The notes under the pieces are model-generated. The model was given only the letters and a program-made list of their open reading frames with translations. It did no database searches and had not been told where the DNA came from. From an uncultured Bacteroidia bacterium (lineage in GTDB: Bacteria; Bacteroidota; Bacteroidia; Bacteroidales; UBA932), in the NCBI GenBank assembly GCA_902768985.1, contig CACXNA010000001.1, positions 246,684 to 310,683 on the forward strand: a DNA stretch of 64,000 nt, given 5' to 3'. Positions 6,441 through 17,603 of the stretch are shown here, piece after piece. How positions within the stretch are numbered: the stretch's first letter is position 1; the number at the start of each line of letters is the position of its first letter. The translations under genes were made by a program, and so were the position numbers.

Positions 6441-6612
6441 CGGAGGCGGCAGGGCTGCTGATGTCCGGGCAGAAAATGCCCGTCCACCAGCACCCTGCCG
6501 CCTTTCCGCCAAATGCCTATAGCGCCAGCCGCCCCGCGCACGCTCCCCACGGCCCCCGACGGCACGGGCAAACGGCCACAGGCCCCCGCACACCCGCCCG
6601 CCGGCTGGCGCA
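6441..6612 (-). repeat. GC-rich structured repeat, copy 1 (long hairpin)
   Basis: This convergent intergenic region holds a very GC-rich element whose reverse complement matches 20446-20620 over its whole length, at about 80% identity in the first 88 aligned bases. It contains a long hairpin: outer arms GGCGGCAGGG (6445-6454) and CCCTGCCGCC (6493-6502), inner arms CGGGCA (6466-6471) and TGCCCG (6477-6482). The element lies just downstream of the exonuclease gene on its strand. The frames open through it are not thought to be genes. Confidence 0.75.
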
Positions 6613-6633
6613 GGGAGAACCGGGCAGCTTACT

Positions 6634-7128
6634 CTAAAGCACCTTACAAGCAATCACCGCACACGCCTCGGCATCAGCCAAAGCATGATGATGGTTTATC
6701 AGATTATAGCCACATGCCGCAGCAACCGTCTGAAGCTGAAAGTCAGACAAACAAGGACCGAAGTATCTGCGGGAGGCAGAAAGAGTATCATGGAACGCAT
6801 AATCCGGGTAGTCCATCTGGTAAACTTTGAATACCTCCTTCAAGCATCCTTCATCGAAAGAACTATTATGGGCTACCAGCGGCAAACCCTCGATCCTCGG
6901 AGCAATCTTTTCCCAAACATGCGGAAACACGGGTGCGTCTTCAGTATCTTCGGGGCCCAACCCATGTACCTGCTGGCAGAACCATTTGTAGTACTCCGGT
7001 TCTGGATGAATAAGGCTGTAGAACTTATCCACAATCTCGCCATCGCGAACAATCACTACGCCTACGCTACACACGCTGCAACGGCACTCGTTGGCCGTTT
7101 CGAAATCTATGGCTGCAAAGTCTTTCAT
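6634..7128 (-). CDS. DnaQ-like DEDDh 3'-5' exonuclease
   Basis: A stand-alone exonuclease of 164 residues with all DEDDh residues in place: D8 and E10 in FAAIDFETA, D92 in HNSSFDEG, H147 and D152 in HHALADA. It belongs to the epsilon-like/RNase T superfamily and would degrade single-stranded or frayed DNA or RNA 3' ends. The start codon overlaps the stop of the upstream WYL regulator (positions 7125-7128), so the two are translationally coupled and share the WYL-operator promoter at 8056-8091. The context, a regulator that represses itself and an exonuclease, points to an inducible nucleic-acid response. Confidence 0.88.
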   Translation of the reverse strand: MKDFAAIDFETANECRCSVCSVGVVIVRDGEIVDKFYSLIHPEPEYYKWFCQQVHGLGPEDTEDAPVFPHVWEKIAPRIEGLPLVAHNSSFDEGCLKEVFKVYQMDYPDYAFHDTLSASRRYFGPCLSDFQLQTVAAACGYNLINHHHALADAEACAVIACKVL

Positions 7129-8033
7129 AAACCGTAATTCTTCATCATCCCAAGAATATCTCCCTTTACCTCATCACGGAACCATTCCGGACTGAGCACC
7201 TCGTAATCTGGCCCATGGCTTAAGATTTCCTGCCTGAAATCAAACGTAGGGACCAAGTAGAGGCGATAGATGGTATATTCCGGTGTAGTTTTTAAAACCG
7301 TCTGACTCTCATGCAGTTTCAGCGTTTCAATATATTTCACCTGACCTGCAGCCACCTTAAGATCTACTAGGATCGGCGTGCAATCCGAACCGACAATGAT
7401 GCCAAAGTAGTTTGAGAAATACGCCCGGCCATCAAAGTCTTTAGGTACGACAAGGCTTTTCTGCGTCGGACTGACGTTCATCATACGTTCATCCAGCGCA
7501 TAAATATGAGGTTCCTCCTTTTCCTCACTCTTCGCCAACATATACCAACGTTGTTTGAAGAGTTTCAGGCAATAAGGGTGAGCTATGAAAGTGCTGGATT
7601 CATTCCTCGAAAAACTCTGATAGGTTACCTCAACGGCTTTCCCGTCGCGTATCGTGTTCACAATGGTAGAAAGCCATCTTTGCGAAGACGGAATCTTCTC
7701 GAACAGAATCCTATCGCGCATATCTTTGGACTCGTTGAGCAAATTGCTCATGGAAAGGGATTCCAACAACCATTGCTTGATGCCATCGGCTTCCAGGTCC
7801 TCTCCGTTTGCGATGTAGTAGCCCAAGGTGCGATCGCATTTGATTTCGATACCGAAAGTATCGAAAATAGCTTCCAGATGATTGAAGAATGTACGATTGC
7901 TCAATGGTTCTCCCGGTCGGTCATTCAAGGAACTGTCTTCCCATAGGTCACTGATGTGTTTGAATGGAATATGACCGTGACGGCTCACCGTGTCAATGAG
8001 CCAGATGTAGCGATCAAAATAGTTCTTTGCCAT
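7125..8033 (-). CDS. WYL-domain transcriptional regulator
   Basis: The protein has 302 residues. The N-terminal 75 residues form a winged-helix-like region (NRTFFNHLEAIFDTFGIEIKCDRTLGYYI). Residues about 120-215 form a WYL domain with its signature RWYMLA at 162-167 inside HPYCLKLFKQRWYML and the following HIYALDERM strand. The C-terminal WCX-like extension runs to the end. WYL regulators such as BrxR and CapW repress defence or DNA-repair genes and release on binding a nucleic-acid-type ligand; transfer of that model here is inference. The palindrome in its own promoter recurs at three other promoters of the island. Confidence 0.9.
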   Translation of the reverse strand: MAKNYFDRYIWLIDTVSRHGHIPFKHISDLWEDSSLNDRPGEPLSNRTFFNHLEAIFDTFGIEIKCDRTLGYYIANGEDLEADGIKQWLLESLSMSNLLNESKDMRDRILFEKIPSSQRWLSTIVNTIRDGKAVEVTYQSFSRNESSTFIAHPYCLKLFKQRWYMLAKSEEKEEPHIYALDERMMNVSPTQKSLVVPKDFDGRAYFSNYFGIIVGSDCTPILVDLKVAAGQVKYIETLKLHESQTVLKTTPEYTIYRLYLVPTFDFRQEILSHGPDYEVLSPEWFRDEVKGDILGMMKNYGL

Positions 8034-8055
8034 AGCAATTCTTTGATTGTTTCTG

Positions 8056-8091
8056 CAAATATAAGGATAATTACTGCCAAAAAGTGGCAGT
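8056..8091 (-). promoter_or_regulatory. WYL operon promoter with palindromic operator
   Basis: On the minus strand a TATATTTG -7 box (8056-8063) lies 23 bp before the WYL start codon. The palindrome CTGCCA-N5-TGGCAG (8074-8090, centre 8082) is centred 19 bp upstream of that box, where it would cover the -33 contact. Binding there should repress the WYL-exonuclease operon. Confidence 0.75.
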
Positions 8092-8096
8092 TTTAA

Positions 8097-9743
8097 TTAA
8101 AAACCTATCTGCCGTTGTTGTCTCTTTGATCCCATCTGCTCTTCACAGCAAAAAGTCAGTATTGCGCGTATGTCGGGCTCTTGTCTTTCCAGGATGGATT
8201 GAATCATCCGTCTTCTGACGACGTTCTCAATCTGGCCACCGCTGAAATCGAATTTCTCAGCGAGAAAATGCGCATCCACGTCAGCAAGTTCCGGCATCAT
8301 GGCTTTCCATATTTTGCATTTGACATCCACAGAGGGGGTGTTGAATTTGAGCTTGTAAAGGAAACGGCGTTCGAAGGCTTTGTCCAGATTGATAGTCAGA
8401 TTCGTGGTGGCGATGAGGATGCCGTCCAGGCACTCCATCTCTTGTAAGATAATGTCCTGAATTGTATTCTCCATTTTGTCCACTGATCGTTGAGCTCCTT
8501 CCTGACGGATACCGAAGATGGCGTCTGCCTCGTTGAAAAGCAGAATGGGTATCGTCCCGCCAAGCTTGACATTTGCTTTGTATTTGTCGAATACATCCTT
8601 TATCATCTTTTCGCTTTCTCCCACCCAACAACTTCTGATTTGAGAGACATCCACGATGAAGAGGTCGCGTCCACTCTCGCGAGCAATCTGGTAGACTGTC
8701 TCGGTTTTCCCGGTACCAGGACTTCCGTAAAAGAGGCAAGTAAAGCCCGTCCGAAGCCCTTTGTCCTTCATTTTTGTTCGAACCTCGTTGAACCGGGCTT
8801 CGCTCATCAAGTCTTTAAGCTGCGCCACCTGATGACCTTCATCCACATTATAAAACATCTTTTTTCTGCCGATGGCTGACGCTTCCAGTTTCCGTGATGC
8901 GGCCACTTTGGGCGCATCCTTGCGTATGCCCCCAAGGTCGGCAAAAATCTCCTCTTTAATCTCGTCCTTAATCTTGAAGTAATCCTTCGTCATCATGCCT
9001 TCGTGGCCGGTAAATTCAATAAGTTCCCGGCGCTGAAGACCAAGATGCCCTGTCTTGGAAGTCGTACGCAAACAATCTAGTTCTATCTCATCATAAAAAT
9101 CCTGCACGTCATGCCATCCCACCATATCGTCCTCTTCAAACCAGTATCGCCATATCAGCGCGAAGAAGAACACGCATTCTTTGGAGCAGAGACCTTTAAT
9201 ATGTTTCTCGCATGCCTTTGAGATGCTGGTTTCCGGATTATCCTTAATCAGTAACGTGACCTCGTCGAAAAGTTCCTCTGCATCCATCTGATCCTCGTTC
9301 CGGATGCAGAATAGTGTTTTCATCCGGCTCAAGATTTGCCCAGAGGACAAGCCAGTGGTGGGCTCCGGCTCGATCGGTTTGTTCCCTTTGATGGCTTTCA
9401 GGACTTCTTTCGGAACCGTGATGTGGTACTCTTTATCCATACGGATGTAGCCCTTCTGCTTCAAAATCATAAAGTCGGCATCGTGCGTGAGGAACTGAAG
9501 ATACTCCATTCCCAGGAAAGAGGCGATGTCCTCGGCATCGATCCGATAACGGGCCGATTTCTGGACGACCCCCGTCAAGATGAGTACCTGCATTGTGCTC
9601 ATCCCCAACACCCGTCGCAGGTGGCGCAGCTCCGACGACGCCCGTTTGGTGGAGTCTGCGTTAATGGAAATCGTGCAGACATCTTCCTTGTTACGCATCT
9701 TCTCTGTCAGCGCATACATGCATTCAATGATAGTCTTGCTCAT
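8097..9743 (-). CDS. AAA family ATPase with N-terminal extension
   Basis: A 548-residue protein. Residues 1-270 form an all-new N-terminal region, partly helical, with a possible winged-helix part at 40-110. They are followed by one AAA module: Walker A GSPGTGKT at 340-347, Walker B ILLFNEAD near 400-406, sensor 1 ATTN at 445-448 and arginine finger in FERRFLYKL near 457-462. The Walker B segment has Asn where Asp normally coordinates magnesium, with the catalytic Glu kept. The start at 9743 is chosen because the promoter box lies 21 bp upstream, and an upstream frame extension would overlap the operator. It stands alone between two WYL-type promoters. Its substrate is unknown; remodelling of a protein-DNA complex is a guess. 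Confidence 0.85.
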   Translation of the reverse strand: MSKTIIECMYALTEKMRNKEDVCTISINADSTKRASSELRHLRRVLGMSTMQVLILTGVVQKSARYRIDAEDIASFLGMEYLQFLTHDADFMILKQKGYIRMDKEYHITVPKEVLKAIKGNKPIEPEPTTGLSSGQILSRMKTLFCIRNEDQMDAEELFDEVTLLIKDNPETSISKACEKHIKGLCSKECVFFFALIWRYWFEEDDMVGWHDVQDFYDEIELDCLRTTSKTGHLGLQRRELIEFTGHEGMMTKDYFKIKDEIKEEIFADLGGIRKDAPKVAASRKLEASAIGRKKMFYNVDEGHQVAQLKDLMSEARFNEVRTKMKDKGLRTGFTCLFYGSPGTGKTETVYQIARESGRDLFIVDVSQIRSCWVGESEKMIKDVFDKYKANVKLGGTIPILLFNEADAIFGIRQEGAQRSVDKMENTIQDIILQEMECLDGILIATTNLTINLDKAFERRFLYKLKFNTPSVDVKCKIWKAMMPELADVDAHFLAEKFDFSGGQIENVVRRRMIQSILERQEPDIRAILTFCCEEQMGSKRQQRQIGF

Positions 9744-9763
9744 TGTTTTCTGGTTTAACGATG

Positions 9764-9798
9764 CAAAGGAAACAACCCACATTGCCAAAAGATGGCAG
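9764..9798 (-). promoter_or_regulatory. AAA gene promoter with WYL-type operator
   Basis: On the minus strand TTCCTTTG (9764-9771) serves as the -7 box, 21 bp before the start codon. The near-perfect palindrome TTGCCA-N5-TGGCAG (9782-9798) is centred at 9790, 19 bp upstream of the box, the same geometry as at the WYL promoter. Confidence 0.7.
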
Positions 9799-9837
9799 GA
9801 ACCATTAATGATGACTAAGAGAGCACTTTATTTACAA

Positions 9838-9872
9838 CTGCCAAGTTTCAGCAGAGACGCACCCTATATTTG
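9838..9872 (+). promoter_or_regulatory. Promoter of the DUF1835-like gene with WYL-type operator
   Basis: TATATTTG at 9865-9872 precedes the ATG at 9894 by 22 bp. CTGCCA-N5-CAGCAG (9838-9854, second half site matching at four of six positions) is centred at 9846, again 19 bp upstream of the box. Two operators thus lie 56 bp apart in this divergent region. Confidence 0.65.
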
Positions 9873-9893
9873 CCGCCATAAAAACTGAGAAAG

Positions 9894-11366
9894 ATGTTGA
9901 ACCTTTACATTTTCAGCAGTGCGGACGCCGCTGGCGTTTTTGAGTGCATCGAGAAGGATCCAGAAGGCGGGATTGACTCCTATTATCCGGTTCCCATGAA
10001 CCTTCACTATATTCCGGAATCTTGGAATGATACAGAAATGATGAAAGTCGCCCTCTCCTGGAGCAATCCGGACTTATATTACAGGGATTTCCGCAAGGAT
10101 GGCTATGCGGTTTGTGATGGGAAGCTTCTGTCTTTCCGATATGATTTGCTTAGTCGTATCAAGTTGGGCGGGAAAATCATTGTCGTACACGGTCAGGATG
10201 CGAATTCTTTACTGCTTTTGTACACCATAGCGTCTACCATTGATGCCGAAATCTATCACATAGATGTCACTCCAGAAGGGTTCTCGCAAAGGCTTCGTAA
10301 TACAACCGAAGATGACTGGGTTGATGTTCATTCCGAAGACGAGGGCGAACGGCAATATGACCCGCTTGTATTCAGGGTCGAGGACGTAACACGCGAGCAG
10401 GCGGAATCGTTCCTTGGGACGGAGAAGCTTGTTACTCCGGAAGAGCGTAAGGCCTGGCGCGAAATCTGGAAACACTGGGGTGGCGAAGACGCCCGAGATT
10501 TCCCCATTCTGGTGGACCAGAATGGAAATCTGTTCCATCCCTACAACGTCTATCTGAACAGTTCTATCTTCAATCATACGCCGACAAAAGCGCCAGCGGC
10601 CATTAAGACCATCGCCGAAGGGGTTTCAAAGGACCATCCACAAGTCGAACGAGACTTGATTGTAAGCCATATTGTCAAGATGGCTGACCAGAGACTGATC
10701 AAGTGGACGCATAAAGACGATAAGCCTGAAGATTGCGAAGTCATCCAGTATCGCACGGACATCGCTACCCGATGGAATCGCTTTCAAGATATACATTTCT
10801 TGATGCAATTTGCCGAATATGCCGGGAAGAAAATAACGCTCTCTGAAGAAGATATTGAAGCAGAGCTTGAACGCGACGAACAAGACAGTAAAGATTTATG
10901 GGGCAAGGGGCACTTGCATAGAGAGGCCATACAGCAAGCCCGTGACGAACGGGACCAGCGAATGCTCATTAAATGGGCAAGTGCGCTAAACGAAGACTGG
11001 GGCTGGTATCACCTGCTGGCTGTCATGAAAACAAAGTTGGAGATGATGGTAGACTATATGCGAAACTGGTCGCCGATAGCCAACGGTCGGGTGTATGCCG
11101 ACCAGATGGACCGCGCCATAGCTTTGATAGATATCGTCATTGCATGGGGAGGTCAATACGACTATCCTCATTCTGAAGATGAAGACGAGTATTTCGACGC
11201 TGCTCACTTCGCACATTATGTCAATTTACGCAATCAAGACAAGTACCCGGCTCCGGATTACGATGGCCATCATTTCTGGTGTGAATCTCAGCGTGTCCGC
11301 TTCACCAAGGCCTGGGTGCTACTTTGGAAGATCTTGTCGGAAAGGGTGTTAACCTGGGAAGACTAA
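9894..11366 (+). CDS. DUF1835/DUF3658-like protein with novel C-terminal domain
   Basis: A 490-residue cytoplasmic protein. The first 290 residues follow the DUF1835 plus DUF3658 plan. A Rossmann-like strand reads GGKIIVVHGQDANSLLLLYTI, and a helical block (LVTPEERKAWREIWKHWG) is followed by LVDQNGNLFHPYNVYLNSSI and a winged-helix-like end with VSKDHPQVERDLIVSHIVKMADQRLIKW. The C-terminal 200 residues (EDWGWYHLLAVMKTKLEMMVDYMRNW onward) are acidic, aromatic-rich and unrecognised. The function of DUF1835 proteins is not known. Its promoter carries a WYL-type operator, and the next small gene starts 5 bp after its stop. Confidence 0.6.
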   Translation: MLNLYIFSSADAAGVFECIEKDPEGGIDSYYPVPMNLHYIPESWNDTEMMKVALSWSNPDLYYRDFRKDGYAVCDGKLLSFRYDLLSRIKLGGKIIVVHGQDANSLLLLYTIASTIDAEIYHIDVTPEGFSQRLRNTTEDDWVDVHSEDEGERQYDPLVFRVEDVTREQAESFLGTEKLVTPEERKAWREIWKHWGGEDARDFPILVDQNGNLFHPYNVYLNSSIFNHTPTKAPAAIKTIAEGVSKDHPQVERDLIVSHIVKMADQRLIKWTHKDDKPEDCEVIQYRTDIATRWNRFQDIHFLMQFAEYAGKKITLSEEDIEAELERDEQDSKDLWGKGHLHREAIQQARDERDQRMLIKWASALNEDWGWYHLLAVMKTKLEMMVDYMRNWSPIANGRVYADQMDRAIALIDIVIAWGGQYDYPHSEDEDEYFDAAHFAHYVNLRNQDKYPAPDYDGHHFWCESQRVRFTKAWVLLWKILSERVLTWED

Positions 11367-11371
11367 AGGAT

Positions 11372-11707
11372 ATGGAACTCAACAAATGGGAAAAGCACCT
11401 CACCCACTGGTGCCCAGCGCAGATGTATTATTATTTCCAGGATTCGGATGGAGGGAAATGGTGCATCTATCTCCGCTGGGATGGCCATCGTGGTGATGAG
11501 CCTTGGCAGGCGGAACTATGCCGTTGCAACGATGCCTGGGATTTTATCTCGGACGGCCAAACTATCAATCTATTGGAGGAGAAAGAGCATACCCCTGGGA
11601 TAGTTACCGGTTTCTATAGAGACGAGGAATACCCTTTCCTAATGGGAAAGATCCTGGAACTGACCAAAGAACGTTTCCCGGACCTCGATTTCCCAAACAA
11701 TCAATAG
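11372..11707 (+). CDS. Small Trp/Asp-rich cytoplasmic protein of unknown function
   Basis: The 111-residue product begins MELNKWEKHLTHWCPAQMYYYFQDSDGG. It has no signal peptide, membrane segment or recognised motif. The predicted alternation of short strands (KWCIYLRWDG, PWQAELCRC) suggests a small beta-rich domain. The ATG at 11372 lies 5 bp behind the preceding gene, so the two form an operon under the operator at 9838-9854. An upstream frame extension overlaps the preceding gene and is less likely. It is probably accessory to the DUF1835-like protein, but no role can be assigned. Confidence 0.6.
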   Translation: MELNKWEKHLTHWCPAQMYYYFQDSDGGKWCIYLRWDGHRGDEPWQAELCRCNDAWDFISDGQTINLLEEKEHTPGIVTGFYRDEEYPFLMGKILELTKERFPDLDFPNNQ

Positions 11708-11710
11708 GAA

Positions 11711-11745
11711 CTGCCAGAGTTTAGCGGGATAACTTCCGTCTTTTG
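11711..11745 (+). promoter_or_regulatory. Promoter of the Cys-rich gene with WYL-type operator
   Basis: CTGCCA-N5-TAGCGG (11711-11727, centre 11719) lies exactly 19 bp upstream of GTCTTTTG (11738-11745), which keeps the TTTG end of the -7 box. The ATG at 11765 is 20 bp downstream. The match is weaker than at the other sites, but spacing to box and start is the same. Confidence 0.55.
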
Positions 11746-11764
11746 TCGCAAAAGGATTCAGTTT

Positions 11765-12295
11765 ATGAAAAGAGAATTCTGGCGCAAAGCGCCGCAGTGT
11801 AAGAAGTGCATCTATCACATCCCCGAAGGGAAAAGGCCGGACTCGAACGACTCCGAAACTGTTTGGAAAGAATCATGCCGTTTCACGGGGCATTCGTTCT
11901 GGCCTGAGTTAGAAGAAGCCGAGATTTGTTTTGATTTCAGAAGTACGGGAAAAGATGCTGATATTGTTGACAAGGCAGAGAAGGATAAATGGGTAAAAGG
12001 ACATTTGTGCGCCAAATGTGCCTTTTATGGTATGAACGGCTTTGATCTGCGCGATCAAACTCTGATCAGGAAACCGGAGGAATGGCATGCTCAGCATCGC
12101 TGCAGAGGATATTTGCATTGTGTAGATCACGACAAGGAAGGTTTCTGTTCATCATTCTTGTCCATTGATCAGTGGGCGGTAGTCGAGTCCACTCCCATAT
12201 ATGGAGGAGAACGGCGCCGAAAATGGGATTTCTTCCGCGAAAATAACACCAGTGGAAAGACGGAACCTGGCTCAATCATCACCGAAAAAGATTAA
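11765..12295 (+). CDS. Cys-rich probable zinc-binding protein
   Basis: A 176-residue protein with paired cysteines that look like metal sites: CKKC near residues 12-15, a Cys in KESCRF, a Cys in EICFDF, CAKC near 81-84, CRGYLHC near 113-119 and GFCSSF near 129. The spacing repeats loosely (CxxC, then single Cys), suggesting two related zinc-ribbon-like units. There is no signal peptide. No family was recognised. The gene is monocistronic or leads into the next gene 32 bp downstream, and its promoter carries the fourth WYL-type operator, which ties it to the island rather than to the flanks. Confidence 0.6.
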   Translation: MKREFWRKAPQCKKCIYHIPEGKRPDSNDSETVWKESCRFTGHSFWPELEEAEICFDFRSTGKDADIVDKAEKDKWVKGHLCAKCAFYGMNGFDLRDQTLIRKPEEWHAQHRCRGYLHCVDHDKEGFCSSFLSIDQWAVVESTPIYGGERRRKWDFFRENNTSGKTEPGSIITEKD

Positions 12296-12327
12296 CTTTG
12301 TCTCGAAACCACTTCAATTATGGCACT

Positions 12328-13071
12328 ATGAGCAGTATTGATTCTAATAACTTCTTTGAGCCGCAACTACGTCAAGCGCTCTTTCCTCTCTACAAGGAAC
12401 TAATGGAAGCCGTAGAGCCTTTTCAGGACGACCCGAGAGGACTCTGCCCCTTTGCCGTTCAATGGGGACCTCGTTTCCCAAAAGAGGAAAGATCGGGAAT
12501 TCTTTTTGTCGGGAGAGCGACCAACGGATGGGTATCCTTTAGTAATGACCCTGATGTGCTGTTCGGAGACACCGACGAAGCCATTTTCAACCTAGGAGAT
12601 CAGATGCTCTGGGTCCATAACCTTGAAGGTAACAGGAACGGTTATAACACCCGTCGTTCCGCCTTCTGGAGGGTCATCCGTGGTATTAGTTCTAGCTTTT
12701 ACCCGAATCCGGAACTCTCATATGTTTCATGGTCCAATGTTACGAAGGTTGCTCCCGACGGAGCAAATCCTAGCGATGTGCTTTATTACGCTCAGTTGGA
12801 GGTTTGCCAGCGGATTCTTGCGGAGGAGATCCGCATCCTGTCACCCCGGTTTGTTGTTTTTCTGACTGGATACAACTGGGCTATCGACTTCCTGCGTTTT
12901 CTCAACGGAGGGAATGCCCCTACCCATATCTTAAAAGAGCCCTGGGGTGATTATGAGGCCTGCACTTTCAGGATAAGAGAAACAACGTGTATCCTCTCCG
13001 AGCACCCCATGGGAAAGCCTGAAAAGGCACATATAGAAGCCATTAATAAGTTAATCAAGGCTTCTATATAG
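12328..13071 (+). CDS. Uracil-DNA glycosylase-superfamily-like protein
   Basis: The 247-residue sequence follows the UDG-fold pattern without being a standard family member. A first strand with motif-1 position reads GILFVGRATN (57-66), an SNVTKV segment at 136-141 sits where the substrate loop falls, a strand LSPRFVVFLTG (171-181) is followed by a helix, and EHPMGK (225-230) takes the place of the HPS motif. Such proteins may be DNA glycosylases or binding-only relatives. The start at 12328 is preferred to a TTG at 12298, because a TAACTTTG -7 box at 12293-12300 overlaps that TTG. No WYL operator is visible at this promoter. Confidence 0.6.
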   Translation: MSSIDSNNFFEPQLRQALFPLYKELMEAVEPFQDDPRGLCPFAVQWGPRFPKEERSGILFVGRATNGWVSFSNDPDVLFGDTDEAIFNLGDQMLWVHNLEGNRNGYNTRRSAFWRVIRGISSSFYPNPELSYVSWSNVTKVAPDGANPSDVLYYAQLEVCQRILAEEIRILSPRFVVFLTGYNWAIDFLRFLNGGNAPTHILKEPWGDYEACTFRIRETTCILSEHPMGKPEKAHIEAINKLIKASI

Positions 13072-13134
13072 TTCTGGAGTTTGTTCCATACCGAGATACC
13101 GGGACACTGGTTATATCTCCCCACAATTATTGCT

Positions 13135-14337
13135 ATGAGTATTGACGGAGCGAAGATCTTTGAGTTGGCCAGTCAGGCTCAAGATCTTTCTGATGGATTG
13201 AATAACACGAATCTTCTTGATGTCGTTCACATGAACGAGAATGCCCATTCGCGCATCCTCCGTTTAATCATGCAGTATGTTAAGGACCACAGATGCCCAT
13301 TCTATGAATCTTTTCTGAGAATCAACAAAATAGCATGTATCCTCCCGGAGGGTTTTTCTGCTGAAAGGCCAACATTCGTCAATGAACAGGATCGAATCGA
13401 TCTTCTTATTGAAGGGAAAGGATATGCCATCATAATTGAGAACAAGGTATATGACGCAGTGGACCAGGACCGTCAGTTGGAAAGATATCTGGACAGTTGC
13501 ATTGGCCGGGGTTTTCCGACAGACAGATTGTACGCATTATACCTGACCTTGGATGGTTCAAAGGAAGTTTCCTCATATAGCTTGACAGAGAAAGCGAAAG
13601 AAGTTCTGGGAGTCACGAATGAATCCACCGGGCGTTTTGTGGAGATAAACTTCCATGACGATATCCTTCCTTGGCTTCGCGAGGCCATTACTCTCTGCAA
13701 AGGTGAGGATGATGCCTGCATCAAAGCGGCGCTTATCCAGTATGCCGATTATGTTTCCGAGATGTACGGAGAAACTGAGAATTCATTAAAATACAAGATG
13801 GGCATAACGGAATTGCTTGCAAAAAACGACATTAGAACAATCGCTTCCTTTACTGAGCATATCGATGCCGCGAATAGACTTTCTACGGAACTCGTTCAAA
13901 GAAGGGATAAGAAATGTGAATTCATAGCGATGAGGTTTATTTCTTTTCCCTTGAAAGAGTACTGTGAGAAGAGAGGGATTTCACTTCTCTACGAAAAGTA
14001 TTCATTCAGCCATGTCAGCATCCGGATGTCTCTTCATGGTAAAGAAAGGTCATTCTTCTGTCTCGACACAGAGAATGACGGACGAATCTTCTACGGGATC
14101 AGCAACTTCAACGTTGCTGACAAAGAAACGCTCTCTGAAGAGGCTCTGTTGCGCTTCAAGAATGCCGGATATACTGACAATGACTGGTGGCCGGCATGGC
14201 GACACCTGGATTCTTCGTCTAGAAGATTCGAGCGGCCCGCTTCTGTTGATTTCTGGGAAATCTCCGTGATGGACAAGAGCTTTGCCAACTTTGTTATTGA
14301 TGCATATGAAGAAGTGGAAAAGATATTGAATCTATAG
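13135..14337 (+). CDS. PD-(D/E)XK nuclease superfamily protein
   Basis: A 400-residue protein. The nuclease core lies at residues about 30-160: ENAHSRILRLIMQY (helix with the conserved Glu), DRIDLLIE with D89, the catalytic pair E102 and K104 in IIIENKVYDAVDQDRQLERYL, and Q114 on the following helix. This matches the PDDEXK family found in many Bacteroidota accessory regions. The C-terminal 240 residues are of unknown fold. The start at 13135 avoids an upstream extension of 18 residues without support. It is followed after 4 bp by the Asp-box protein and then directly by the metallophosphoesterase, giving a three-gene operon. Confidence 0.8.
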   Translation: MSIDGAKIFELASQAQDLSDGLNNTNLLDVVHMNENAHSRILRLIMQYVKDHRCPFYESFLRINKIACILPEGFSAERPTFVNEQDRIDLLIEGKGYAIIIENKVYDAVDQDRQLERYLDSCIGRGFPTDRLYALYLTLDGSKEVSSYSLTEKAKEVLGVTNESTGRFVEINFHDDILPWLREAITLCKGEDDACIKAALIQYADYVSEMYGETENSLKYKMGITELLAKNDIRTIASFTEHIDAANRLSTELVQRRDKKCEFIAMRFISFPLKEYCEKRGISLLYEKYSFSHVSIRMSLHGKERSFFCLDTENDGRIFYGISNFNVADKETLSEEALLRFKNAGYTDNDWWPAWRHLDSSSRRFERPASVDFWEISVMDKSFANFVIDAYEEVEKILNL

Positions 14338-14341
14338 CACT

Positions 14342-14692
14342 ATGCCACAGTTAATCACCTATGGCAACGAGTTGATCAGGATCAACCCCGCCAACAATCA
14401 CATAGAATTCTCTCCCAACCGAGGCATTTCCTGGATGCCTCGCTATACCGGAAGTAGTTTTGGCACATTCCGCGATCTGGTTCCATATAACGGGAAGATT
14501 ATCGCCATTACAGACAAGGGCGTATACTATTCCACTAACAAGGGCATCAGTTGGGCGTCCAGAAACACTAGTTCTGTCGTCCGGACCTTCGTCGTCATTC
14601 AGGACGCCGGCAGAGAGCTGCTGGCCCAGACCTGTGACGGGCATTTGTATTTTTCCACCAACGAAGGCATATCCTGGATACGGCGCAAATAG
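14342..14692 (+). CDS. Asp-box (BNR-like) mini-repeat protein
   Basis: The 116 residues contain three repeats of about 40 residues, each with an Asp-box-like motif SxNxGISW: SPNRGISW at 24-31, STNKGISW at 64-71 and STNEGISW at 105-112. Asp boxes normally sit in six- to eight-bladed propellers; here less than half a propeller is present, without a signal peptide. It may oligomerise or be the remainder of a longer gene. It starts 4 bp after the nuclease and ends exactly at the start of the metallophosphoesterase (TAG ATG), so it is embedded in an operon and unlikely to be random. Confidence 0.6.
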   Translation: MPQLITYGNELIRINPANNHIEFSPNRGISWMPRYTGSSFGTFRDLVPYNGKIIAITDKGVYYSTNKGISWASRNTSSVVRTFVVIQDAGRELLAQTCDGHLYFSTNEGISWIRRK

Positions 14693-15274
14693 ATGCTTGT
14701 AGAATACAAAAGCCATAAGATCTTTGCTTTTTCCGACACCCACGGGATGTATAGGCGACTCGACGTGCCCGCAGATGCAGATATCCTAATCTGCGCGGGG
14801 GATGCATGCGAAGGCTTTGCCGTTGAGGGCCTGAAAGACTTCTTTTCCTGGTATAACAGCCTTCCAGCAAAACTACGGATATTCGTCGCTGGGAATCATG
14901 ATATGGTCTTTGACGAGCAACCCGATTATGCGCGAAGCCTCATTCCCGAAGGTGTTTCGTTCCTTGAGAATGAAGGAATTGAGTTCGACGGGATCAAGTT
15001 CTATAGCGTCCCGGCAAGGCCGTACATGAAGACACCGCTTCCCATACCTGAAGATGTTGACTTCCTCATTACCCACGGGCCGGCTTACGGCTATCTTGAC
15101 CAGGGCTTGGGCTGTAAGAACCTCTTCCTTTCCATGGCCAGCGCTCGTCCCAAGTACCACATCTTCGGCCACGTCCACGAGGAGGGGCTTAAAAGAAAGG
15201 CGGTGCTTGGTAGCACCACTTTTCTCAATATGTCGTATTTCGAGGAACTACGTCATTCTTTGGGCTCTGAATAA
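14693..15274 (+). CDS. Calcineurin-like metallophosphoesterase
   Basis: A 193-residue phosphoesterase with the full metal-site set: FSDTHG near residue 12, AGDA near 34, AGNHDM near 60, ITHGPAYGYLD near 116 and FGHVHEEGL near 148. The compact form resembles predicted phosphatases of the YfcE/MJ0936-like branch that act on phosphodiesters or nucleotides. It is translated directly after the Asp-box protein. About 130 bp of its 3' end (from about 15107) recurs as a second, partial copy at 16271-16435 behind the Bro-N gene. Confidence 0.85.
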   Translation: MLVEYKSHKIFAFSDTHGMYRRLDVPADADILICAGDACEGFAVEGLKDFFSWYNSLPAKLRIFVAGNHDMVFDEQPDYARSLIPEGVSFLENEGIEFDGIKFYSVPARPYMKTPLPIPEDVDFLITHGPAYGYLDQGLGCKNLFLSMASARPKYHIFGHVHEEGLKRKAVLGSTTFLNMSYFEELRHSLGSE

Positions 15275-15365
15275 TCCATTCGGCGCCCTTATCTCCCCCT
15301 TTTCTCCGAATAGTTCGGAGGAAGCTATCCTCTATTTTCACATCAAGATCCGATACAAGTTTCTC

Positions 15366-15396
15366 TTGCAATAGAAAGGAGTATTTTGTAGCTTTG
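15366..15396 (+). promoter_or_regulatory. Promoter of the Bro-N gene
   Basis: TTG at 15366-15368, a 20-bp spacer and TAGCTTTG at 15389-15396 form a canonical Bacteroidota promoter. No CTGCCA palindrome is present, so this gene seems outside the WYL-type regulon. Confidence 0.7.
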
Positions 15397-15415
15397 TAAA
15401 CAAACCTGATTGGTT

Positions 15416-16258
15416 ATGTCAAACATGGAACAGATACAACTTTTTGGAGAGAGGCAGATTAGAACTTCCTGGAACGATGCGGAGGAGAAGTGGTATTTCT
15501 CCATCATTGATATTATCGCAGCACTTGTCGAAACAGATCGTCCCAGAAAATACTGGTCTGACCTGAAGCGAAAGCTTGTTGCCGAAGGAAGCGAGTTGTC
15601 CGAAAAAATCGGACAACTGAAAATGAGGTCCGCTGATGGGAAGATGTATGCCACCGATGTTGCCGACCAGGAGCAGCTTTTCCGTCTGGTTCAATCAATT
15701 CCTTCTCCCAAAGTTGAGCCCATTAAGCTTTGGATAGCCCGCGTGGCGAGCGAGCGCATTGATGAGATGATAGACCCGGAGGTTTCTATTGACCGGGCGA
15801 TTGACACATATCGTCGCAAGGGATACTCCGAGGAATGGATTAATCAGAGGCTGCAGGGCAAGAAGGAGCGCAAGAAACTTACGGACGAATGGAAACGTGT
15901 CGGTGTGAAGGAGAAGCAATATGCCATCTTAACCAATGCAATTTACGAGGTCTGGTCTGGTATGACCGCCAAGGAATACAAGCATCTTAAAGGTTTGAAG
16001 AAGGAGAATCTTCGCGACAATATGACTGATACGGAGAGCGCTCTTACTACACTGGCAGAGGTGGCAACCCGAGAAATTTCACAAAACGAAGACCCCGAAA
16101 CCATTGCCCATAGCATCAATATCGCACGCAGAGGCGGCGGGGTTGCCAAAGTCGCCCGTGAAGCATTGGAAGACCAACTCGGCAGAACCATCATTTCTTC
16201 GGATAATGCTAAGACATTAAATAGACCGGAAGCCCCAAAGGAAATAGAGGAGCAGTAG
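15416..16258 (+). CDS. Bro-N domain (antirepressor-like) protein
   Basis: A 280-residue protein. An N-terminal Bro-N domain (residues about 8-105) opens with IRTSWNDAEEKWYFSIIDIIAALVET and includes the conserved YWSDLKRKL helix and ATDVADQEQLFRLVQSIPSPK. The C-terminal region has a long basic helix (WINQRLQGKKERKKLTDEWKRVGV). Bro-N proteins include phage antirepressors and DinD-like damage-inducible proteins. The start at 15416 lies 19 bp after the promoter box; 15425 is an alternative. The gene is flanked on both sides by the 3' end of a metallophosphoesterase gene, which suggests insertion or duplication. Confidence 0.82.
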   Translation: MSNMEQIQLFGERQIRTSWNDAEEKWYFSIIDIIAALVETDRPRKYWSDLKRKLVAEGSELSEKIGQLKMRSADGKMYATDVADQEQLFRLVQSIPSPKVEPIKLWIARVASERIDEMIDPEVSIDRAIDTYRRKGYSEEWINQRLQGKKERKKLTDEWKRVGVKEKQYAILTNAIYEVWSGMTAKEYKHLKGLKKENLRDNMTDTESALTTLAEVATREISQNEDPETIAHSINIARRGGGVAKVAREALEDQLGRTIISSDNAKTLNRPEAPKEIEEQ

Positions 16259-16270
16259 TGTGTCCGGAGC

Positions 16271-16435
16271 TTAGGCTGCAAGAAGCACTTACGTTCCATC
16301 GCCAGCGCTCGCCCCAAGTACCACATCTTCGGCCATGTCCACAAAGAAGGGCTCAAAAGGAAAGCGGTGCTCGGGGGCACAACCTATCTAAATTTGTCGT
16401 GTTACGAGCGTTCAAGAATACAGTCAAGATGTTAA
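16271..16435 (+). pseudogene. Relic of a second metallophosphoesterase 3' end
   Basis: Translated in the right frame this stretch reads LGCKKHLRSIASARPKYHIF, then GHVHKEGLKRKAVLGGTTYL and NLS. It corresponds to the C-terminus of the metallophosphoesterase at 14693-15274 (LGCKNLFLSMASARPKYHIF onward). No 5' part, start codon or promoter remains, and the last 15 residues are unrelated. It is clearly diverged from the intact copy, so the duplication is not recent. Confidence 0.75.
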
Positions 16436-16458
16436 TAATAGAGTGTGCAGAATAATCG

Positions 16459-16466
16459 TACATTTG
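16459..16466 (+). promoter_or_regulatory. -7 box of the second UDG-like gene
   Basis: TACATTTG lies 29 bp before the TTG start at 16495. A TTA at 16432-16434 is the nearest -33 candidate, so the promoter is weaker in sequence than the others. Confidence 0.45.
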
Positions 16467-16494
16467 GCGATATCACATATCAATTCATACGAGT

Positions 16495-17190
16495 TTGGAA
16501 CTTAGTCAAATCCTTCAGCATCGTTTTTATTCATGTACAATAAACGATAAACTAATTGAGTTGTATGAGAAAACCGACTTTGAGTTTGGGCCTCTGTTTG
16601 AGGAGTTGAATTCGAGGTCAGACGCCACAGAGTATTTTACAAACCCTTTTTACGCAGTTGTAAGCGAAGCGTACATAAAGGCAAGAAACCGAATTATCAT
16701 TCTTGGCCAAGAGACCAACACTTGGGGTGGTGAGTTTGGAGACGATGGTGCTTATCATCGTAGTAATACTGTAAATAATCTGTGTAAGTTATACGACTTG
16801 TACATCAATCACAGGAATCAGTCATCTGGGCAGTATTGGAGCTACTGTCATTATTTAGAAGAGAATGCGAGCAACAATTCAGAGTTCTTTTATTTCAATA
16901 CTGCTTTCGTTGGGAAATGTGGAGAAACTGGTTATATCGACAAATTACAGCCTTATGTCCTATTTGAGGTGTTCAAAATCGTTCGTCCGAATCTTGCCAT
17001 TTTTTTGTGTGGGCCTAATTATGATTCTTTAATAAAGGAAAATTTAAGAGATTCAACATACTTTACTCAAGCATCTGATTGTTTCACAACCAAACAGTTT
17101 GCAAAAATAGAAGGGGTCGGCATTCCTGCCTATAGATGTTATCATCCCGGGTATTTATACCGTACGACTTCTTTTAAGAGAAACTTTTGA
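16495..17190 (+). CDS. Second uracil-DNA glycosylase-superfamily-like protein
   Basis: The 231-residue protein shows the UDG-fold order of motifs: RIIILGQETNTWGG (motif 1, residues 66-79), NTAFVGKCG (135-143), VRPNLAIFLCGPNYD (163-177) and CYHPGYL (215-221) in the position of the HPS loop. It is unlike the gene at 12328-13071 in detail. The only plausible start is a TTG at 16495, since no in-frame ATG occurs before motif 1 and a -7 box lies 29 bp upstream. This gene and the 370 bp after it are the most AT-rich part of the window, consistent with separate acquisition. Confidence 0.55.
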   Translation: MELSQILQHRFYSCTINDKLIELYEKTDFEFGPLFEELNSRSDATEYFTNPFYAVVSEAYIKARNRIIILGQETNTWGGEFGDDGAYHRSNTVNNLCKLYDLYINHRNQSSGQYWSYCHYLEENASNNSEFFYFNTAFVGKCGETGYIDKLQPYVLFEVFKIVRPNLAIFLCGPNYDSLIKENLRDSTYFTQASDCFTTKQFAKIEGVGIPAYRCYHPGYLYRTTSFKRNF

Positions 17191-17354
17191 GAAGATCATA
17201 GTTCCAATGCTACAATAGCACCCATTACAAATAATAATAATCTATTCCCTGCAAGATAATAGCAGTAAATAACTCACATTTGCGATTATTATCGCATAAT
17301 ATGACTCTTTACATATTATCATTCCGTCATAGTTTCGAGGCTATCGTTACTTAG
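17191..17354. other. AT-rich intergenic stretch without recognisable gene
   Basis: Stops occur in all frames on both strands. It contains low-complexity AATAATAATAAT but no hairpin with a T-run, no promoter of the local type and no repeat shared with the rest of the window. Confidence 0.5.
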
Positions 17355-17561
17355 CTAAATATTGTTGATTCGGAGAACATTCCTGTTAATTTATATGCAT
17401 TCAAGGAGGCTTTCGATAAAATGCTCTGAACTGAATTAGGAGATCCGCACGATGAAAAGATTGTCATCGATTATATAGTGGAGACCGATAGCGGATTATC
17501 TCCTATCGATAACATCTTTTTGGGAAACCACACAGCGGATCCATATAGGAGTCACGCATGA
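17355..17561 (+). pseudogene. Decayed coding remnant with one in-frame stop
   Basis: One frame reads LNIVDSENIPVNLYAFKEAF then DKML, a TGA, then TELGDPHDEKIVIDYIVETD followed by SGLSPIDNIFLGNHTADP. The amino-acid composition looks coding, with well-mixed charged and hydrophobic residues, but there is no start signal and the stop interrupts it. No family was recognised. It is probably the C-terminal remainder of an island gene. Confidence 0.35.
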
Positions 17562-17603
17562 AGAGTCTATTGACGTACGTCTTTTCATTGTTTGCAGTCG
17601 ATA

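Follow-up and report, generated by a model that had tools for sequence, protein, structure and literature searches.

Four promoters in one gene island of an uncultured Bacteroidia bacterium carry a common operator at a single fixed distance from the -7 box, and judging from the sequence this is probably the local regulon of a WYL activator of the DriD/PafBC type, which would autoregulate and switch on its defence-like neighbours. The island lies in a stretch of 64,000 nucleotides, here called the window, to which all coordinates without a locus name refer. In the proposed mechanism, a WYL dimer would bind CTGCCAnnTTTTGGCAG, thereby taking up the position of the -33 element otherwise read by the housekeeping sigma factor, and the bound protein would recruit RNA polymerase to a TAnnTTTG -7 box exactly 10 nt downstream. 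The targets of activation would be the WYL gene itself with the exonuclease, the AAA ATPase, the DUF1835-like gene and the Cys-rich gene, and the downstream nucleases would perhaps be activated by read-through. The trigger is probably ssDNA or oligonucleotides from phage replication or DNA damage, acting in the WYL domain, as proposed by analogy with DriD and PafBC. We infer both this signal and a role of the island in defence or DNA damage.

The initial annotation of this DNA had described sites of the form CTGCCA-N5-TGGCAG at 8074-8090, 9782-9798, 9838-9854 and 11711-11727, each with its centre 19 bp upstream of a -7 box that ends 20-23 bp before the start codon, two promoters on each strand, and every part of this description held. 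The WYL-exonuclease promoter has the operator CTGCCACTTTTTGGCAG (8074..8090, minus strand), which matches without mismatch, and the -7 box TATATTTG before the WYL gene (8056..8063, minus). The AAA promoter has the operator CTGCCATCTTTTGGCAA (9782..9798, minus; 1 mismatch) and the box TTCCTTTG (9764..9771, minus). On the plus strand, the DUF1835-like gene is preceded by CTGCCAAGTTTCAGCAG (9838..9854; 2 mismatches) and the box TATATTTG (9865..9872), and the Cys-rich gene by CTGCCAGAGTTTAGCGG (11711..11727; 2 mismatches), the weakest of the four sites, and the weak box GTCTTTTG (11738..11745). Operator centres at 8082, 9790, 9846 and 11719 lie 19 bp from the first box base at 8063 and 9771 (minus) and at 9865 and 11738 (plus), and the operator edge stands 10 nt from the box at all four promoters. 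The gaps between box end and ATG are 22, 20, 21 and 19 nt in the order WYL, AAA, DUF1835-like and Cys-rich, equal to 20-23 when counted as distances. The boxes match 6, 5, 6 and 4 of the six specified positions of TAnnTTTG, and the N10 sequences between operator and box are unlike at all four sites.

The WYL gene (7125..8033, minus) encodes a WYL-WCX transcription regulator of 302 aa with an N-terminal DNA-binding region (Pfam WYL 4.5e-12, WCX 1.4e-08). It overlaps by 4 nt the second gene of its operon (6634..7128, minus), which encodes a 3'-5' exonuclease of the DEDDh, RNase_T type (Pfam RNase_T 8.8e-15; PADLOC PDC-S48 3.2e-27); the exonuclease cluster occurs in 24 of 32 sources, namely the window and loci L047-L077. 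The IetA-like AAA ATPase of 548 aa (8097..9743, minus; Pfam AAA 1.3e-22, PADLOC IetA 5.4e-28) belongs to a cluster of 12 genes in 12 of the same 32 sources, and all 12 carry the operator. No function was assigned to the 490-aa protein (9894..11366, plus), which had no Pfam match of its own and is called DUF1835-like solely through a homologue in its cluster, L058:6761-8002, whose DUF1835 score of 0.00058 falls below the cut-off. The genes for a 111-aa protein lying 3' of it (11372..11707, plus; clustered in three loci, with its own operator in none of the three) and for the Cys-rich protein of 176 aa (11765..12295, plus) were likewise left without assigned function. An operator was not found for any of the island genes in 12328..15274 (plus), which encode a UDG-like protein (12328-13071, below the Pfam cut-off), a PDDEXK_4 nuclease (about 13135-14337), a 116-aa reading frame (14342-14692) and a metallophosphoesterase (14693-15274). 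These genes gave PADLOC matches to PDC-S26 and PDC-S10 and are possibly read from upstream promoters. When ten island proteins were scanned, the PADLOC matches were to the unproven candidates PDC-S48, PDC-S26, PDC-S10 and PDC-S13 and to IetA models.

Comparison of homologous loci, which had been suggested as a check, showed that the operator and its 10-nt spacing recur across a set of 31 loci. In these loci (508,903 bp, overlapping loci kept, promoters of the WYL gene itself excluded), the 10-nt spacing accounted for 64 cases of a palindrome with up to 2 mismatches followed by TAnnTTTG with up to 1 mismatch, against 6 at the next best of 41 spacings, and four altered palindromes gave only 0-2 at 10 nt. 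With duplicates removed, palindromes with up to 1 mismatch had a box at exactly 10 nt in 36 of 39 cases outside WYL's own promoter and in 18 of 18 at it; for palindromes with 2 mismatches the figures were 26 of 42 and 9 of 10. The frequency of the box at random places is 0.0043. One operator alignment demanded a box at 10 nt to fix the register and carries no weight as a test of spacing. Among 101 genomes of the genus, 14 contained the operator with N10 and TAnnTTTG (up to 1 mismatch), at 24 places in all (reversed control 0), and a looser exact pattern gave 40 matches in 24 of 199 genomes of the family (control 3). The promoter module thus recurs in many Bacteroidales. The palindromes at L065:4834 and L049:7142 are candidate cases in which one palindrome may serve two divergent promoters.

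The operator is asymmetric and reads CTGCCAnnTTTTGGCAG-N10-TAnnTTTG. T is present at position 10 in 95 of 97 sites and at position 11 in 82, whereas the palindromic mates A8 and A7 are present in 47 and 16 of the 97 sites. The operator lies across the place expected for a -33, at a fixed distance from the -7 box, as in activators of the DriD/PafBC type. TTTG was found 17-23 nt upstream of the box in none of 71 operator promoters, and TTG at 20 nt was present in 7% of them as against 15% of 74 background promoters, a low background that makes this a weak test, so a poor -33 at operator promoters is weakly supported.

The regulator itself has WYL and WCX domains over the Pfam cut-off and is by this measure a WYL-domain regulator. 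Pfam HTH models gave no match in it; its model shows helices at residues 2-19, 24-32 and 46-60 and two strands. None of the residues W163, Y164 and R183 varies among 22 homologues, which does not prove a ligand. The PDB profile search returned the PafBC fusion at 3.9e-15, single PafBC chains at 2.9e-7 and 5.6e-6, and DriD at 1.4e-13 to 6.8e-13, as against 0.0098 for CapW and 0.15 for BrxR; by closest similarity, with DriD at about 1e-13, the protein falls outside the CapW/BrxR class. A single-sequence PDB search gave weak matches throughout, with PafBC chains at 0.018 to 0.021 and CapW at 0.63, and DriD was absent from it. Foldseek with the AlphaFold model placed DriD (2.6e-12) and PafBC (5.5e-12) above CapW (5.1e-8) and BrxR (1.7e-6), a ranking that is merely supportive, since the model has a pTM of 0.56 and the alignments to full DriD chains have a TM of about 0.5 and an rmsd over 11 A. 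In sequence profile and modelled fold, the WYL protein thus appears nearer to DriD and PafBC than to CapW and BrxR, at a remote identity of 16-17% to DriD/PafBC, and it is probably an activator of their type.

Among the described systems, the island shares with DriD an HTH-WYL-WCX protein, a palindromic target and the nearest fold. In the portion of the DriD report available (PMC12340889), the DriD site overlaps the -35 region, the -35 is poor and the promoters aligned have the site at one fixed distance from -10; here too the operator covers the -35/-33 place, which may likewise be poor, at one fixed distance from the box. The differences are an identity of about 16% in the fold alignment, an operator CTGCC-N7-GGCAG in place of the 20-bp pseudo-palindrome of DriD, a Bacteroidota promoter that lacks a clear -33, targets that cluster beside the regulator, and ssDNA binding that is here putative, by analogy. 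Mycobacterial PafBC, as far as the accessible text describes it (PMC11804915), is a WYL activator that takes the place of the -35 contact, a case of sigma adaptation. The PafBC fusion is the best PDB profile match of our protein, but PafBC is a heterodimer; the single gene and near-palindromic site here suggest a homodimer. The SiwR protein of Mycobacterium smegmatis is presented in the consulted part of its description as a WYL activator that acts as a homodimer, with an imperfect palindrome of 19 bp that covers -35 to -10 and a -26 region that is required (PMC10693628). The likeness to SiwR lies in a WYL activator, putative here, with a near-palindromic promoter target; SiwR controls DinB-like genes, and its operator and phylum differ. 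In the open-licence literature, among the matches listed by title and abstract opening, we found none on a WYL operator in Bacteroidota or on replisome decoys under a WYL operator.

A rival reading takes the WYL protein for a repressor. It would then be CapW/BrxR-like, sitting on the -33 of constitutive promoters and released on infection or damage, and the fixed spacing would reflect only the need to cover the -33. The overlap of the operator with the expected -33 place fits this reading, as does the apparent autoregulation, which is common among repressors. CapW is a WYL repressor that is encoded in a defence-like island and binds an inverted repeat, and our island likewise encodes a WYL regulator with an inverted-repeat operator. 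BrxR, a WYL protein of defence islands, also binds inverted repeats and represses, but its repeats lie downstream of the predicted -10 and not over the -33 place, according to the available part of its report (PMC9122601). Both are repressors to which our protein is less similar in sequence and fold than to DriD/PafBC, and a fixed promoter geometry is not among the features reported in the accessible portions of the work on them. A symmetric repressor site, moreover, would not explain the conserved T10-T11, the spacing is preferred even where the operator sequence has changed, and TTTG is absent at the usual -33 distance. We therefore consider repression unlikely, and infer activation. Among the points against the activator model are that a repressor lying over the -33 region might equally be held at a fixed position, and that the box of the fourth window site is poor.

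A different regulator might bind the operator, the WYL gene being just one of its targets. The tie between WYL protein and site is one of sequence association, and some distant loci have, 1.4-7 kb away from their WYL gene, an extended palindrome, acctCTGCC..GGCAGaggt. However, operators with up to 2 mismatches stand no more than 150 nt before 27 of the 30 close WYL homologues tested; two of the remaining three, L051 and L075, show a site with 3 mismatches whose box is at 10 nt. In L053 the WYL gene is not immediately preceded by a site. Exact operator matches were found in 20 of 53 genomes with a strong WYL homologue and in 4 of 146 others (199 genomes; Fisher p 6.8e-10, with kinship ignored and the threshold separating strong from weak chosen once both lists were known). 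The exact CTGCC pattern is absent from 33 of the 53 genomes with strong homologues, which we ascribe to drift of specificity. Exceptions to the link between helix and operator are L075, with an NH helix and GTGCC, L056, L060, L062 and L067, with CTGCT, and several distant loci in which a clear site is absent (kinship ignored).

In 20 divergent loci, exact TAnnTTTG boxes were preceded at 10 nt by sites resembling the local WYL operator (at least 10 of 12 positions) in six cases, all from three plasmid loci; no other of the 31 spacings had more than one case. With T[A/T]nnTTTG boxes, the 17 other loci gave 5 at 10 nt as against at most 1 elsewhere, and the three plasmid loci 6 as against 1; at the looser threshold of at least 8 of 12 the test was noisier (16 versus up to 8, and 11 versus up to 6). 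The preference of neighbouring promoters in divergent loci for sites like the local WYL operator at 10 nt supports the WYL protein as the binder. By cluster, WYL is present in 29 and the exonuclease in 24 of the 32 sources and no other cluster in more than 14, so there is no second regulator common to the loci in the DNA examined. Binding by another regulator is accordingly quite improbable, and the earlier proposal that a single regulator, most simply the WYL protein, is at work has good support from the operator sites and the co-occurrence but is not proven.

Scans were made of the window and, as also suggested at the outset, of the genome: the palindrome alone was near chance in the window, and a pattern fitted to the sites with their geometry occurred only at the four window sites. 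With up to 3 mismatches the palindrome gave 41 matches in the window against 35.7 expected, a number reached in 20 of 100 shuffles, and was rejected as evidence without the geometry; with up to 2 mismatches it gave 122 places per strand in the own genome against 75 in the reversed control. The palindrome (up to 2 mismatches) with N14 and TTTG gave 4 matches in 6601-17600, and of 118 permuted half-sites 117 gave none and one gave a single match. The exact pattern CTGCCANNNTTNNGC-N16-TTTG matched the four window sites and nothing else in the 2.35-Mb genome (reversed control 0); having been written to fit these sites, it shows exclusivity and is no independent test. The tests that are independent of it are the spacing counts in the 31 loci, the genus scan, the co-occurrence with WYL homologues and the counts in the divergent loci. 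Two places of the own genome with 3 mismatches were not counted, C5:9155 (L110), where the nearest same-strand frame starts 167 nt past the box, and C5:13123 (L111), with no same-strand frame of at least 80 aa starting within 1 kb. That the sites are coincidence or duplicated promoter DNA is very hard to credit, despite the near-chance palindrome and what by eye appear to be duplicated remnants in the island at 16260-16400, for the genes are unrelated, the N10 differs at all four sites, the permuted half-sites gave 0-1 matches against 4, and recurrence in many genomes before unrelated genes contradicts it for the family as a whole. A candidate fifth, decayed operator, CTGCAAGATAATAGCAG (17249..17265, plus), was also read by eye and set aside as a possible remnant, since its box stands at 9 nt, not 10, and a broken reading frame lies behind it.

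For the DriD/PafBC-type regulon, the defence-locus WYL regulators compared (BrxR, CapW) are repressors, and the activators compared (DriD, PafBC, SiwR) serve DNA-damage or stress responses in Caulobacter and mycobacteria. If true, a family of WYL activators in Bacteroidales that controls defence-like cassettes would link these groups. It would also offer a candidate stress switch for genomes where no LexA was found, as well as a simple code, made up of operator half-site, 10 nt and TAnnTTTG, by which such genes without assigned function could be found; the exact spacing renders the activation model directly testable. The LexA DNA-binding domain PF01726 was found in none of 21 genomes searched, the own genome included (10 of them at least 90% complete with low contamination; in the control, 10 of 14 known genomes had it), and control by a LexA SOS regulon was rejected. 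Fragments of ParE, DnaE and DnaA stand behind the same operators in relatives, and the short ParE-like proteins are under purifying selection although they have lost residues of the ATP site. As a tentative and rather doubtful extension, LexA-less Bacteroidales might run an SOS-like response through fast-diversifying WYL activators that replace the -33 contact, in which ssDNA from damage or phage would switch on private cassettes of nucleases together with catalytically dead ParE-like, DnaE-like and DnaA ATPase-only proteins acting as decoys or dominant-negative replication brakes, activator and operators changing specificity together while the geometry stays fixed. As to a mobile origin, which was considered and set aside, three Prevotellaceae plasmids carry relatives that cover most of the query at 36-41% identity; more distant ones were found among 23 plasmid records, and others on 9 faecal phage-labelled records and 2 IMG/VR contigs.

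Four CTGCCA-N5-TGGCAG-like operators had been placed in the window by the initial annotation (8074-8090, 9782-9798, 9838-9854 and 11711-11727), each with its centre 19 bp from a -7 box (TAnnTTTG). All four were recovered at these positions; in every case the 17-bp site and the box are 10 nt apart, and the centre is 19 bp from the box. The palindrome alone is close to chance in the window (41 matches as compared to 35.7 expected, at three mismatches). Site and geometry together gave 4 matches in 6601-17600, as against none in 117 of 118 sets of permuted half-sites and one in the last. A scan of the 2.35 Mb genome assembly containing the window, with a geometry pattern composed to fit all four sites, returned these four only. 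Two near-identical elements, TTGTCAAAAGNTGGCAA + N10 + TATCTTTG-like, lie about 4 kb apart elsewhere in this genome (C5:9155-9189 and C5:13123-13157), with no fitting gene start close downstream of either.

The WYL-WCX regulator (302 aa; 7125-8033, minus strand) has an N-terminal helical DNA-binding region; the next gene, which overlaps it by 4 nt, encodes a DEDDh exonuclease (6634-7128, minus strand). Beside the regulator is a 548-aa AAA ATPase (8097-9743, minus strand). Next are a 490-aa protein with no assigned function (9894-11366, plus strand), a 111-aa protein between it and the Cys-rich protein, the 176-aa Cys-rich protein itself (11765-12295) and a UDG-like protein (12328-13071), whose Pfam UDG match is below the cut-off. 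More distal island genes encode PDDEXK_4, metallophosphoesterase and Bro-N proteins. Five of the ten proteins scanned, the WYL protein not counted, matched PADLOC models for phage-defence candidates or IetA.

A search with the WYL protein yielded 60 loci, of which we inspected 57 upstream; L063, L105 and L106 were omitted, as the gene start lay outside the DNA or the match was partial. Conservation of the sites in homologous loci, a check suggested by the initial annotation, was borne out: a palindrome with at most two mismatches lay no more than 150 nt from the WYL start in 27 of the 30 close loci tested (L047-L077). In L051 and L075 the site has three mismatches and its box is 10 nt away. 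Upstream inspection revealed no site directly before the WYL start of L053, where a site is present in front of the preceding co-directional gene (L053:1465). Among the more distant loci (L078-L104, n = 27), L092 alone was within two mismatches, though some of these matches begin after the first residue and the true WYL start may be further upstream. The full pattern (at most one mismatch) occurred at 24 places in 14 of 101 genus genomes (reversed control, 0), and a looser exact pattern gave 40 matches in 24 of 199 family genomes (control, 3). Strong WYL homologues (best E <= 1e-55, a cut chosen after both lists were seen) were present in 53 genomes, 20 of which had operator matches, as compared to 4 of the 146 others (G048, G089, G152, G175).

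Across 31 loci (508,903 bp; both strands, WYL own promoters excluded, overlapping loci kept), the box followed the palindrome at 10 nt 64 times and at the runner-up among 41 spacings 6 times; exact boxes numbered 43 at 10 nt and at most 2 at other spacings. With duplicates removed and WYL own promoters counted apart, palindromes with at most one mismatch had the box at 10 nt in 36 of 39 cases (WYL own promoters, 18/18) and those with two in 26 of 42 (9/10). At L065:4834-4850 and L049:7142-7158 one operator has boxes at 10 nt on both flanks, and each may act for a pair of divergent promoters. The symmetry of the operator is incomplete: T occupies positions 10, 11 and 12 in 95, 82 and 93 of 97 sites, while the mirror positions hold A8 in 47 and A7 in 16. 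The sites had been selected without regard to positions 10 and 11. The consensus is CTGCCAnnTTTTGGCAG-N10-TAnnTTTG. None of the 71 exact-box promoters had TTTG at 17-23 nt before the box, and TTG at 20 nt was present in 7% of these as compared to 15% of 74 background promoters. In the sigma-ABfr consensus, according to PMC7366714, TAnnTTTG stands at -7 and TTTG around -33, and the -33 element could not be recognised in Flavobacterium johnsoniae. Because of the latter, and of the 15% in background promoters, the lack of a -33 element is suggestive only.

Upstream of the WYL gene in divergent relatives, the site takes GTGCC, GTGTCT or GTGCAA forms in the 10-nt register, a reading that presupposes this register and hence is no test of spacing. 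At other promoters of 20 divergent loci with exact TAnnTTTG boxes, a site resembling the local WYL operator (at least 10 of 12 outer bases) occurred six times at 10 nt, all in L167-L169, and at most once at any other of the 31 spacings. With T[A/T]nnTTTG boxes, the 17 non-plasmid loci gave 5 sites at 10 nt as compared to at most 1 elsewhere (7 vs 3 at >=9 bases, 16 vs 8 at >=8), and the plasmid loci 6 vs 1 (10 vs 2, 11 vs 6). The recognition-helix motif RTF[HF]NH goes mostly with CTGCC, RTFHKW mostly with GTGCC/GTGTC and RTFINN with GTGCA. Exceptions are L075, CTGCT in L056, L060, L062 and L067, and ATGCC in several; several distant loci had no clear operator site in this comparison. The helix-operator link, which is not corrected for phylogeny, fits the WYL protein as operator binder. 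L167-L169 are plasmid loci with divergent WYL cassettes (Prevotella sp. E2-28, Segatella copri DSM 18205 and Segatella hominis), whose annotated toolkit resembles the island: WYL, 3'-5' exonuclease, AAA/ATP-binding and PD-(D/E)XK nuclease, together with phospholipase D-like, metallophosphoesterase and DUF262 proteins, single plasmids missing some items. An extended palindrome, acctCTGCC-N7-GGCAGaggt, was seen 1.4-7 kb from the WYL gene, its TTnnTTTG-like box also 10 nt away (L087:18015, L091:12322, L095:12290, L089:11436, L090:4054, L092:17017, L082:10099). It precedes AAA, FtsZ-like, DUF6557 and other genes and may be bound by a sister regulator.

A 22-homologue profile searched against PDB matched the PafBC fusion (3.9e-15), single PafBC chains (2.9e-7, 5.6e-6) and DriD (1.4e-13 to 6.8e-13), followed by CapW (0.0098) and BrxR (0.15); the single sequence matched PafBC chains (0.018-0.021), CapW (0.63) and nothing else. 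The AlphaFold model (pLDDT 81.7, pTM 0.56) was nearest to DriD and PafBC, then to CapW and BrxR. DriD sites overlap a poor -35 at one distance to -10 in aligned promoters (preprint PMC12340889), the SiwR palindrome covers -35 to -10, with the -26 region required (PMC10693628), and BrxR represses from repeats downstream of the predicted -10 (PMC9122601). The geometry here is that of activators, like DriD and SiwR and unlike the repressor BrxR. PF01726 (LexA) was detected in none of 21 genomes searched. We infer that the WYL protein is probably a DriD/PafBC-type activator, which would bind the operator and activate in response to an ssDNA signal, its regulon being confined to the island, in Bacteroidales without detected LexA.

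The window and L047-L106 together hold 106 sites with the geometry (box with at most one mismatch or, in a few including the window's fourth site, up to two with intact TTTG). A reading frame follows 105, in 36 protein clusters: WYL (30), AAA ATPase (13), ParE/GyrB-like (5), a 253-262-aa unknown (5), 83-aa zinc-finger-like (5), phospholipase D-like (4) and DnaE-like (3) among them. Among the single or paired clusters are GmrSD-type and PDDEXK_4 proteins, the exonuclease of the WYL operon, a protein with the DnaA ATPase alone, a KaiC-like ATPase that matches DnaB below the cut-off, and the FtsZ-like protein behind the extended palindrome. Twenty of the 36 are one gene each, and some such sites may be chance.

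Truncated or degenerate DnaE, ParE and DnaA paralogues were observed behind WYL-type operators (L064:2256-4334, L071:8100-8582, L073:7855-8547, L073:6134-7195, L066:8485-9216, L062:8156-8719); none of these fragments was seen in the window's first 21 kb. The 692-aa DnaE-like protein of L064 aligns to host DnaE blocks 12-497 and 556-844 (of the 1131 residues available), is without its PDxDxD motif and ends before the C-terminal part. In L071 and L073 the finger domain stands alone, as proteins of 160 and 230 aa. The ParE-like cluster spans 14 loci, with an operator directly upstream in 5 of the 14 genes. In alignments counted by eye, its 10 short members have lost what we take to be the catalytic Glu in nine (kept in L051) and the presumed ATP-site Asn in all ten (kept in host ParE). 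Both are present in the near full-length L055 protein and in the 340-353-aa form of L071-L073. Among 28 ParE-like and DnaE-finger gene pairs, dN/dS was 0.03-0.26 in 26, with two not computable and dS saturated in many. The boldest reading would be an SOS-like response with replisome decoys.

Within the island, the protein at 16495-17190, judged by eye, may be a second uracil-DNA glycosylase superfamily member besides that at 12328-13071. The DNA at 16260-16400 resembles, also by eye, the 3' part of the metallophosphoesterase gene (15110-15240) and is perhaps the remnant of a copy duplicated within the island. At 17249-17400, a degenerate operator with its box at 9 nt is followed by a broken frame whose first residues, MTLYILSF... 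(by eye), resemble those of the 490-aa protein encoded from 9894; this may be the relic of a second copy.
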